A stretch of DNA of 64,000 nucleotides from Rhizophagus irregularis (taxonomy: Eukaryota > Glomeromycota > Glomeromycetes > Glomerales > Glomeraceae): NCBI RefSeq assembly GCF_026210795.1, contig NC_089453.1, positions 994,501 through 1,058,500 on the forward strand, given 5' to 3'. This document shows positions 56,418-64,000 of this stretch, piece by piece. The position numbers and the translations under genes are program-made. Each line of letters opens with the position of its first letter. The first letter of the stretch is position 1. The notes below the pieces were generated by a model. The model saw only the letters and a program-made list of their open reading frames with translations. It ran no database searches and was not told the DNA's origin.

Positions 56418-57687
56418 ATGAGTTCAATTTTTGAAATAAAATTAGGAGAACCACGGCCAAAAACAAGTTGGGTATGGCCATATTTTGAAGTAAAGACTTT
56501 ACAAGATGGAGAAAGTGTAGCGACTTGTAATATTTGTAATAAAACTTTTAAACATGGTGGATCCACTTCAAATTTAATAAATCATCTGGCTAAAACTCAT
56601 AAAGTTTTTAAACCTGATAATAATAATTACAATAATTCAAGTGGCAGTGGGCTTAATAACAATAATAAAAGAGGAAGTTATAGTAGTGTTAGCGGTGTTA
56701 ATGAATTTTCAAGTAATTTTGGAGGTGAATTTGTAGCTCAAGTTAATACTATTTATGATCCTAATCAACAACAACAAAATTATCCATTATTACCACAATA
56801 TCCTTTAGAGGAAGAAATGTTACATCATCATCCTCATGTGGTAGATGGTGATATAAATGTTAGAAAAATTAAACATCAAAAATTAATTCAAAATCATCCG
56901 TTGGAATTTTTATTTGGAACTTGGTATGGACAAGGTAGTGGCAGATTCGAAGGTATTAATGACTTTATTTATAATGAAGAAATTACCATTTACCCCGATG
57001 AAGCTGGTAGAGGTTGGTTATATTATAAGTAAGGGAATTTTTTTTTCTCTACTTTATGGCTTTAAAGAAACTTCTCTCATATAGTATTTTTTTTTTTCTT
57101 ACAGGCAGAGAACGTGGAATCCTATGAAAAACAATTCAAATTTTCATAGCGAAATGGGATATATTAGAACGCCTGGAATGAGCGATAAAGTTGAATTAGT
57201 TTTGGCTCAACCAACTGGTAATTTTTATTTTTTTGATTATTTTAAAGAATTCTGTATATTGGAAGTGAAATTTTAAAATTTTTCTTTTATTAAGGAATCG
57301 CTTCAATCGAAGAAGGTAGGATTGATGGTACCACAATTATGTTTAGATCAACCAATATCTCAAGATCCGCCACTGCTAAGGTTATTTATTTATTAGGATT
57401 ATTCAATTTTAATCAATTATTAATTATTAATTGTATTTTATCAATCTATCAATTTTTAGCCTCCTCATGTTGTAGAGTACACTCGGTAAACTTTTTTTTT
57501 TAAATTATTTTAATCCAAATATTTTCTTGCATTTTAACCCACTTATTTTTATAAAAGGACTTGGATGGTAGATCCTATAAACGACACAATGACATATGTA
57601 TTTAATATGTCAACACAAAGTAAGCAAATGGCTCAACATCTTAATGCCACCTTAAGAAGAGTTTCTTTCTTAAACAATAATCTCTGA
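56418..57687 (+). CDS. BED zinc finger-nitrobindin fusion
   Basis: Five exons (56418-57028, 57105-57217, 57295-57380, 57460-57485, 57558-57687) encode 321 residues with two domains. Residues 15-63 form a BED-type zinc finger (KTSWVWPYF, then Cys37, Cys40, His56, His61 in CNIC...NHLAKTH), a DNA-binding module shared with hAT transposases. Residues 66-159 are an Asn/Ser/Gln/His-rich linker. Residues 160-316 match the nitrobindin/THAP4 C-terminal haem barrel: HPLEFLFGTWYGQGSGRFEG, MGYIRTPGMSDKVELVLAQ, PHVVEYTR, and MAQHLNATLRRV with His306 at the position of the proximal haem ligand. Nitrobindins bind ferric haem and isomerise peroxynitrite to nitrate. Human THAP4 has a different zinc finger (THAP) on the same barrel. 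DNA targets and haem binding are inferred. Confidence 0.88.
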
Positions 57688-58103: not shown

Positions 58104-59619
58104 TTAATATAATTCATCTTCAACATTGAAATACCACATATACAATACCCAACATACTATAATACTAATCCATCTCCACATTCCCATTCCTGAATCCAAA
58201 TATTCATAATGATAAAGTAAAAGATGGGTATATACTGCAATAATGATCGGTGTAGTTAACGATATAATGAAATTAAAGATTTTTTGGCTCTATTTTAAAT
58301 TAATAATAAATAATATATCAATACATAGAGCAATTCGATACGGAACGAAAATCTAATGTTCATACCATTAAGTCTTCTTCATTTTGATTCTCTGCAATAA
58401 TAATATTTAGGTAGTAAAATGCACTGATAACTATACCTGTACGATATATGAGTGCCATAAATACATTTAAAGACAAAGCTTTTTGAATTGCCGTTACCGT
58501 TCGAAATCTTTCCACAAAATTCAACAAATTATTTGCAATAAATTGCGCATTTATATTCACCTTCAAACTATAATAGTGTGAATAGCTTATATTAGTTTAT
58601 TTTCTATGACCTCAAGAATATAATAATTAATATATATTAAATTACTCTCTGATATAATCTATGATTGCTTTTGCATCAAAATTCTGAAAGAGATTTGGGG
58701 AAATATTATCTTTATTAATCAATAACTGAAGATCTTGTGGAGGTACACTAGGTTTCCAATTTAACGATAACATATATATACAATAAATATTATATGCAAA
58801 CTAAAATGATAAGATTGATTAGATAATTAATGTATGAAATAAAAAAAACGAGAACAAATTATTTTTACCAAAAGAGATAAATCCGGCAAAAGTGGCTTTG
58901 CATATTCTGTGTTATTTACGGCTAATGATACTGTGATTACAACGGCTAATGTCATAATAGATCCAATTAATGTCGCGTTATATATATCCATTCCTGGCGT
59001 AGTATATAAGCTATAAAGAATATAACTAGATATAACATAATTAACTAATGATATTATAGAAATATATATCTATGAATATAAAAAAAAATTTAATAAATCG
59101 TAAGATATATTTTAGATAATTTTTTTAACTAATGTACCTGTATTCTCTCGTCTTGTTCCAAAAGTTGTTTGACTTTATCTCTACATATAATAATAGCTGT
59201 TGCTGTAGCAGCTCCCTCAATAATTGTGAATATTGGCGATGAATATATCAAAAACATTTCATAAAAATTCAATAAAGCTTGCGTTTGATCCGTATAAATA
59301 AATCGAAGTGAATGGATAAAGAAATACGGAAAGAAGAAGGGTTGTGATATTGTTAAGAGTTGTGACTGTGAAAAAAAGATAAAACAAAAATTATTGTTAA
59401 AGTAAATAAATAGAGAAATTCTAAAAGAACACTTACTATGATCCAGCCTAACCCTCGTTTTTCCGAATACAACATTTTCATTAAACCTAAAAGAGTGTGG
59501 TATGAAAATAATGCGAATGACACAGCCAAACCAGCTGTTCTTCCTCCTATGTCAAATGCAATAGGCAATAAAAACAAAACCAATATATGATTTGCTCCGT
59601 TGAAAAATGAAAGCATCAT
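58104..59619 (-). CDS. ICE2: ICE2-like ER membrane protein
   Basis: Six exons (59619-59437, 59365-59138, 59069-58869, 58800-58646, 58567-58366, 58289-58104) encode 384 residues with around eight hydrophobic segments. The start FFNGANHILVLFLLPIAFDI and GGRTAGLAVSFALFSYHTL match the Ice2 N-terminus (PISFKVGGLECGLSFTVTLF in yeast). SSPIFTIIEGAATATAI resembles Ice2 FFTLSEGFFTILAI, and the end (LTTPIIIAVYTHLLLYH, MGMWRWISIIVCW) matches its last helices. Ice2 resides in the ER, tethers it to the cell cortex and to lipid droplets, and controls phospholipid supply. A Tc1/mariner copy is inserted 153 bases upstream of the start codon (59773), so the promoter is short or disturbed. Confidence 0.85.
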
Positions 59620-59772
59620 AATGTTTCGATTTAAGAGCGACGCGTTTTCGTTTATCTATGGTATTTCCACAGATCATCTCAAATATTCACCTTCACGTTA
59701 CTCGTGTGGCGCCCTTTATATTTAGACCCCTGTCTTAATCATGTTTAATTTTGCGTAGGTTCCCAGACTATA

Positions 59773-59804: not shown

Positions 59805-59883
59805 CTGTAGATCATTTATTTGTTTAACTTTAAAACCAGTTTTGTCGATCATTTTATTATAAATTTGTCTCCAATTTTTTCCC

Positions 59884-60945
59884 ATGCGTTGTTTAGAACC
59901 TTCTTTAACTACTATGTCTTGCAAACGAAGAGAACTTACAATTTTTGAACGTGGAGAAGTCATTGGAGCTTGGAAATGTGAAGTAAGTGAACGAAAGATA
60001 GCTGAAGCATTAAATTGTCCCAGTTGTACCATTCATAAGGTTATTTCTACTTACAAGATACGTGGTGATGAGACACTCCCTCCTAGGACTGGAAGACCGC
60101 CTAAAATGACAGAAAGGGATGGCCGACATTTAATAAGAATTCTTAAAAAAGATAGGAAAATGACCCTTCAGGAGTTACATGAGAATTTCGTTTATTCTAC
60201 TTCCACACATGTATGCAAAAAAACTTTACTTAATTATCTTCATGAACAAGGTTTTTATAGTCGAGTAGGAGTAAGAAAACCTCTTGTTACTGAAACCAAT
60301 AGAATTAAAAGACTCAACTGGGCTAAAGAACGAAAATTATGGATAAATGAGTGGGACAGTGTTATTTGAAGCGACGAATCCAAATTTGAATTATTCAGAG
60401 GAAATGGTAGGAGATTGGTTTGGAGAAGGCCACATGAAAAATATGATATTGAGTGTTTAATACCTACAGTAAAGTCAGGTCAACAAGGAGTGATGGTTTG
60501 GGGATGTTTTTCAAAAAACAATCTTGGTCCATTAGTTAAATTAGAAGGTAAAATAACAGCCACAGTATATATGAATGTACTGGAAAATTATTTATTACCA
60601 TTTATTAATAATCTAGACGATCAGGAAAATTTTATTTTTCAGGATGATAATGCCCCTATACATACTGCAAGGGTGGTTAAGAGTTGGGAAGAAGAAAATG
60701 AAGTAAACAGCCTCCCTTGGCCCGCACAGAGCCCAGATTTGAATCCTATAGAGCATTTATGGGATGAATTGGAAAGGCAGGTGCGGGCACATAAGCCATT
60801 ACCAAAAAACAGGGAGAATTTATGGGAAATACTTCAAGAGGAATGGTTAAATATTGAAGCTGATAAATATCAAAATCTTATTAGTAGCATGCCTCGTCGT
60901 ATCTCTGCTGTTATAAATAGTAAAGGTTACCCAACAAAGTATTAA
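59884..60945 (+). pseudogene. Tc1/mariner transposase with one in-frame stop
   Basis: Reading through one codon gives 353 residues in a single frame. The N-terminal helix-turn-helix region (RRELTIFERGEVIGAWKCEV, then SERKIAEALNCPSCTIHKVI) is followed by GRPPKMTERDGRHLIRIL. The DDE core has the first Asp in SDESKFELF, the second in FQDDNAPIHTA and the Glu in SPDLNPIEHLWDELE, giving a DD34E pattern typical of Tc1. The interruption is TGA at 60367-60369, just before SDESK where relatives have Trp (TGG), so a single G-to-A change would explain it. Otherwise no frameshift is seen. It is either a freshly inactivated copy or a mobilisable one that borrows transposase from another locus. Confidence 0.9.
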
Positions 60946-62767: not shown

Positions 62768-64000
62768 TTGATCTTGAATAAAATCTACTTCAGAAAAAGA
62801 AATTATGGTTGCTTGAAGATATAAACATTGTGACATTTCTTCTTTAATAGTAGTTGCTATATTTATTATTAAATACTTTTCTAATATCTCAGTTATTGAA
62901 GGAAAAAGATCATCTCCCGTTGATAATAAAATTGAATTTGTAGTTGCAGATCTCTTCCATTGAAGTTCTGAAGTAAGCCTTTCGGATAAACTATCAACAA
63001 GATGACATAAGGTTGAATTGCTTCTGACTGTTTTTTTAATAATTGCATTCATTCCTTCAACTCGTGAAGTAGATTCAATACCAGCTGTAAATATTTTTCG
63101 CAAGTAACAGTGTGCCTATGATTTCTTTGATGGCCATAGTTCTTAAGAAGATAATCTTTAGCTAATGGGAATTTTTCTAGTAAATCATTCCATCGTGCAA
63201 TAAATAAAGCTTCACACAGACTATTACGACATTTGTAAAAGTTTTTAATAAAGTCACTATAATGTTGTCCTAATTTGCCTTTCAAATTTTTTGGTAAATT
63301 TTGTTCAATATGGTATATACAATGTGCATGATAACTATTTGGAAATTGAACAGGTATAGCAGTATCCATAGCTGGGTCGGCATCAATAAAAAATACTAAA
63401 GGTTGTTTTTCAGTAGCTTGCAATACACATTGTAATATCCATTGGTAAGTTTCAAATATTTCATTGCTAATAACAGCTTGTGCAAGTAATCTTGTACGTC
63501 CATTATTATCCACACCAACAAATACACTTAAAGGCATACTATATATATTTGTTTTTGCCGTATTATCATTGATGATAATGTCATGATATTTGATCCAGAG
63601 TACAACTTGTTCAGGAGTCATCCAAAACAGACGGGTAAGCCGATTATCATTATCAAGTTCAAATTTAACAAAGAACTGAGGATCCTCCTGCTTCTTTTGG
63701 ACAAGATTGATAAGAAGATCAGATGCATCATTATGCATATTACTACGATCAAGTGACTTGAACTTTTGTATGGCATTTGACAGGTCTGAATCTGAACAAT
63801 TCATTTTTGGAAATCTTGCTTTTAGAAGATTTCGTTGTAAAGTAATTGAAAGATTACCATATCTGGTCATTATTTCAATTTCGTCTATCATTTCTTTTGT
63901 AAATTTTCTATATTTGCTACTAAATTCAAAAGCATCTGGTCTTAATTCATGATTATGTTGATTTGCAAATAAACTAACGGTAATACAAGTAGCACGTTCT

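Follow-up and report, generated by a model that had tools for sequence, protein, structure and literature searches.

A gene of the arbuscular mycorrhizal fungus Rhizophagus irregularis carries a BED zinc finger and a complete nitrobindin-type barrel in one reading frame. It occupies positions 56418..57687 on the plus strand of the window, the 64,000-nucleotide stretch of DNA that was analysed (C25:994501-1058500 of a searched genome of 146,748,485 bases in 32 contigs), and its spliced translation, assembled from five exons with GT..AG introns and supported by Pfam matches, runs to 321 amino acids and a TGA stop. The 28S primer intraF published for R. irregularis (PMC9599619) has no match in that assembly, a mild point against the species assignment unless the rDNA in question is absent or withheld. 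The best explanation of the gene, to which we give roughly an even chance, is that its product works as a haem protein tethered to DNA, either as a sensor of reactive nitrogen species or as a means of removing them. In such a protein, His306 would bind ferric haem, and the BED finger would recruit the molecule to chromatin or DNA, where the barrel would bind NO or isomerise peroxynitrite; its ligand or oxidation state might then alter transcription of nearby genes, or its chemistry might protect them. We infer the haem binding and the NO or peroxynitrite chemistry from the family to which the barrel belongs, and the DNA binding, nuclear location and coupling of the two halves from the architecture only.

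Gene structure and neighbourhood

The fusion is independent of splicing, since the finger, the linker and the start of the barrel all lie within exon 1 (56418..57028), a single open frame of 611 bases on the plus strand. It holds, in order, the BED finger (residues 19-62; 56472..56603), a 97-residue linker (residues 63-159; 56604..56894) and the first barrel strands, which correspond to profile positions 3-45 (56895..57028). The rest of the barrel is distributed, on the same strand, over exon 2 (57105..57217), with the codon of the distal-side His218 at 57145-57147, exon 3 (57295..57380), exon 4 (57460..57485) and exon 5 (57558..57687), which completes the barrel and contains the codon of the proximal-ligand His306 at 57637-57639. 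The four introns measure 76, 77, 79 and 72 bases, and all are GT..AG in this model, which was built from sequence alone. Its least certain parts are exon 4, with a mere 26 bases, and the unusual donor GTTATT that follows exon 3; both fall inside the barrel, in a region that the alignment with THAP4 spans. The model yields 321 residues, and C37, C40, H56, H61 and H306 take the positions that the sequence-only reading had assigned to them. That reading had also proposed a single fused product and looked to RNA reads across intron 1 as the proof; the single product stands by virtue of exon 1, and intron 1 lies inside the barrel rather than at the boundary between finger and barrel, so that reads across it are not the proof.

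That the finger and barrel instead belong to separate transcripts, or were joined through a fault in the assembly or the gene model, appears very improbable. In its favour, the exon borders rest on sequence and a poly-A run stands directly ahead of the start codon. Against this, 40 simulations of the 64-kb window under a first-order Markov model never produced an open frame as long as the shared one (at most 179 codons, compared with 211), and codon bias of the coding type extends throughout the exon: GC content at codon position 3 is 0.12 in the finger, 0.09 in the linker and 0.22 in the barrel start, and in all three parts the values at positions 1 and 2 (0.27-0.46) lie above it. Because the third-position GC is low in the linker as it is in the finger and barrel start, the linker, too, looks coding. 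A further, weaker argument is that no GTRAGK or GTATGW donor was found inside exon 1, weak because, of the four donors in the gene model, one conforms to this pattern and the other three (GTAATT, GTTATT and GTAAAC) deviate from it. The fusion as a splicing artefact is rejected, as finger and barrel start share one exon and one frame.

The linker, which had been described as of low complexity, is rich in Asn, Ser and Gln, with the coding-like third position given above. It contains an in-frame methionine, Met134 (56817), and a basic patch, RKIKHQK, immediately ahead of the barrel. The predicted structure of the exon-1 product is poor, with a mean pLDDT of 34.9 and 168 of 204 residues below 50.

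Several other features share the window. On the minus strand, 55010-55306 matches DIOX_N (6.1e-22) and is likely to be exon 1 of a dioxygenase gene of the non-haem type, which would be divergent from the BED-nitrobindin gene at a distance of ~1.15 kb. On the other side, a minus-strand match to ICE2 (59353-59655; 1.7e-9) may be joined by minus-strand frames down to 58104 into a gene convergent with the BED-nitrobindin gene. A Tc1/mariner-type transposase at 59863-60945 on the plus strand, ~2.2 kb downstream of the gene, is divided by an in-frame stop into two adjacent frames, which match HTH_Tnp_Tc3_2 and DDE_3, and a MULE-type transposase frame (PF10551, 2.3e-21) occupies 63052-63999 on the minus strand, open at the window end.

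The barrel and its haem pocket

The sequence-only reading had claimed a full nitrobindin-like domain, and the Pfam search bears this out: THAP4_heme-bd (PF08768) matches residues 160-313 at 4.8e-38, with 131.1 bits against a cut-off of 25, and the match covers profile positions 3-151 of 151, that is, the whole domain. Three further Pfam families reported at E up to 1 (Usg, DUF7896 and UPF1_Zn_bind) all fall under their own cut-offs. The best relatives of solved structure are THAP4 (9.1e-20), Arabidopsis nitrobindin (2.5e-18) and mycobacterial Rv2717c (2.7e-14). Identities over the aligned columns amount to 48/151, 48/141 and 49/145, respectively, and the barrel is therefore about equally distant from all three.

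These relatives differ in what accompanies the barrel. Arabidopsis nitrobindin (At1g79260; 2a13, 3emm), described as a 166-residue barrel alone (PMC10135655), resembles the fungal protein in the barrel itself, in the two histidines H158 and H76 and in the GxWxGxG strand, but is a single domain without a finger. Rv2717c (2fr2) likewise has the barrel and both histidines, but its 172-residue chain is covered by the barrel and has no finger. Human THAP4 (3ia8) shares with the fungal protein an N-terminal zinc finger, the C-terminal nitrobindin barrel and both histidines; it differs in having a THAP finger rather than a BED finger, in reading GTWLSDPPGAG rather than GTWYGQG in the signature strand, and in length, 567 residues (PMC6275384) versus 321. 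The parallel with THAP4 that had been drawn thus holds for the order of domains, which is common to both, while the type of finger differs.

The main features of the pocket are kept and other positions in it have changed, which makes haem binding likely but not certain. His306, proposed earlier as the haem ligand, does align with the proximal H158 of Arabidopsis nitrobindin (At), and His218 with At H76 on the distal side. A review passage describes H158 and H76 as conserved in all nitrobindin-like proteins from bacteria to human, and places H76 on the distal side, beyond iron-binding distance (PMC10135655); a distal histidine of the globin type is described elsewhere as absent in nitrobindins (PMC10094804). 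Identical counterparts are also found for At F44, T98, V128, M148, L159 and E78, among them F183 for F44, M296 for M148 and E220 for E78. The GxWxGxG strand is a nitrobindin motif. It is present here as GTWYGQG at residues 167-173, and human THAP4 departs from it.

Five pocket positions have changed: L100 to I243, M75 to F217, I131 to Y277, S97 to P240 and T40 to G179. The last of these removes a contact present in Arabidopsis nitrobindin, where Thr40 is reported to hydrogen-bond a haem propionate (PMC10135655); the fungal protein has glycine where the aligned solved relatives have threonine in 3 of 3, although the contact is not known to define the family. It is conceivable that the barrel has drifted away from haem altogether and now serves another target or acts as a scaffold, leaving a DNA-binding factor without NO chemistry. 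The substitutions of Thr40 by Gly, Met75 by Phe, Ile131 by Tyr and Ser97 by Pro would agree with such a drift, though the proline recurs in Rv2717c, as would the score for the peroxynitrite-isomerase equivalog NF045819, 109.8 bits against a cut-off of 225 in NCBIfam, a library curated for bacterial and archaeal genomes. Yet both histidines and the counterparts of Met148, Phe44 and Glu78 have been retained, together with a GTWYGQG strand that is altered in human THAP4, and we regard drift away from haem as quite unlikely.

The BED finger and its origin

The N-terminal half was correctly recognised as a BED finger. Its match to zf-BED (PF02892) reaches 2.3e-10 and 40.8 bits over a cut-off of 20.6, and all four ligands, C37, C40, H56 and H61, are intact in the C-x2-C ... 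H-x4-H arrangement. A structural model of low confidence places three strands and then a helix at residues 23-60 (pLDDT 54-61), and the match to the solved finger of ZBED1 (2ct5) is weak (E 0.026). A THAP finger (PF05485) does not appear among its Pfam matches, which at E up to 1 comprise five families.

Fingers of this type abound in the genome. At least 113 BED matches exceed the cut-off, counted among 150 scored of 431 candidates, and none of 14 control genomes has a match; the count is in line with the inflated number of BED genes that has been reported (PMC6123716). When the genome was searched with the whole protein, 25 of the 29 matches fell outside the gene, each of them to the finger region (query 6-96), with 42-48% identity over 55-69 residues in the best eight. 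The top one of 15 aligned finger frames is identical in 25 of 58 columns, and one short stretch in L007 in 14 of 26. Among the nearest matches, three loci were examined, from which four frames were scanned, and at each of the three loci the finger is followed downstream by a hAT dimerisation domain (PF05699). Resident hAT loci also share SWVW..YF-like and GSTSNL-like features with the fused finger, features that link it to hAT transposases with their BED-like N-terminal finger. Unlike these, however, the BED-nitrobindin protein lacks the hAT dimerisation domain, and Pfam finds neither PF05699 nor a transposase core in it. Where a dimerisation domain is lacking, DNA binding by a lone BED finger may be weak. 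Domesticated BED proteins include ZBED1/DREF.

The proposal that the finger is of transposon type is thus supported in that the nearest matches in the genome include hAT elements, but no direct donor is found among them. The first and second cysteines are nine residues apart in L023, L024 and L027 as against two in the fused finger, and none of these three loci is therefore the direct donor; the finger of L023 (L015) passes Pfam at 24.1 bits, and that of L024 gives no match at E up to 0.001. At L023, positions 264-2638 comprise a BED finger frame followed by a stop-free hAT frame of 620 codons, which could be a transposon or a domesticated gene.

Searching the window by tblastn with four hAT pieces from the three loci, all of which matched the positive control L023, revealed no transposase: one piece, which bears a finger, matches the BED finger itself (1.3e-7) and one 23-residue stretch (E 0.027). 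That the finger belongs to a hAT insertion that is intact or recent is rejected, given that the tested pieces turned up no transposase in the window and that the nearest relatives are at most 48% identical. Since no transposase adjoins the gene, the capture appears to be old, and the captured finger to be of a hAT-like type. Inverted repeats around the gene number 63 pairs, and the 25 longest are mostly A/T-rich; two pairs, I5 and I11, flank the gene (21 nt, 81% and 76%) and look like chance.

Function and the parallel with THAP4

First, no second nitrobindin barrel came to light at the sensitivity of the genome search. The genome gives two matches to PF08768 (from three candidates), and both are exons of the BED-nitrobindin gene; neither this search nor that with the whole protein found a further copy of the fusion. 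Moreover, no globin domain (PF00042) was matched when the entire genome was read in six frames, in a scan that proceeds exon by exon, so that an intron-split gene could be missed, and whose controls matched in 3 of 14 cases, all bacteria. If this result holds, the fungus is without flavohaemoglobin, which a review of NO in fungi presents as one route of NO removal and in which a search for the word 'nitrobindin' had no hit (PMC10889981). Since no other PF08768 match and no globin match was obtained, the fusion may be a main NO-handling haem protein of the fungus, and it would supply a candidate for that role in a genome without a globin match. Wider searches with a barrel pattern made from one sequence, which reaches close relatives only, returned no match in viral contigs and, in prokaryote genomes, 17 matches of which none was confirmed.

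Second, the barrel may act at DNA or throughout the cell. It is possible, though rather unlikely, that the protein is a scavenger whose barrel isomerises peroxynitrite or binds NO cell-wide and whose finger is only a passive relic or a localisation tag. The plant protein manages with a barrel alone, overexpressed human nitrobindin in HEK293 cells is described as lowering nitration while being mainly cytoplasmic (PMC10135655), a detoxifier would be useful given the lack of a globin match, and translation from Met134 could yield a barrel-only product. What speaks against a mere relic is that the finger has all four of its zinc ligands and an intact BED core despite at most 48% identity to the nearest resident matches. 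This retention of every ligand in a widely diverged finger slightly favours a sensor at DNA over a scavenger, and hints at selection on the finger; the evidence for selection is thin, because resident hAT-type transposon fingers keep their zinc ligands as well. For the DNA-tethered haem protein that we prefer, the points on the other side are the glycine in place of Thr40, the other pocket changes, the missed equivalog NF045819, the weak match to ZBED1 and the low pLDDT of the finger.

The idea of coupling an NO sensor to transcription is already in print for THAP4. In a 2018 paper, which describes the physiological role of the protein as not yet known, a link between nitrobindin chemistry and transcription is put forward as speculation (PMC6275384), and a review considers THAP4 a possible peroxynitrite sensor (PMC10135655). 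In agreement with the sequence-only reading, which knew of no described fungal example, the BED version did not turn up in print: among the open-licence PubMed Central papers listed, in several searches a part of those that matched, no title or abstract start concerned a BED-nitrobindin protein or a fungal nitrobindin; automatic database annotations of the gene may well exist.

Third, it is interesting to consider how two different fingers came to stand before the same barrel. For its part, the THAP finger derives from a transposon, and convergence with THAP4 is plausible. A search of the fungal genome with the THAP profile gave no match, and none in its controls either. The different fingers on a shared architecture fit two separate captures, and they also fit a single ancient fusion whose finger was exchanged later; as the comparison was made within one genome that carries the fusion, the two histories are indistinguishable here. 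The most far-reaching version of events, in which a globin-lacking arbuscular mycorrhizal fungus put a hAT finger on its only nitrobindin, independently of THAP4, and so gained a DNA-bound sensor of NO or peroxynitrite that possibly reads plant NO during symbiosis, is one that we hold to be doubtful. The presence in a fungus of this haem barrel with another type of DNA-binding finger would make the coupling of finger and barrel look selected rather than accidental, and this small two-domain protein offers a direct test case for the sensor idea.
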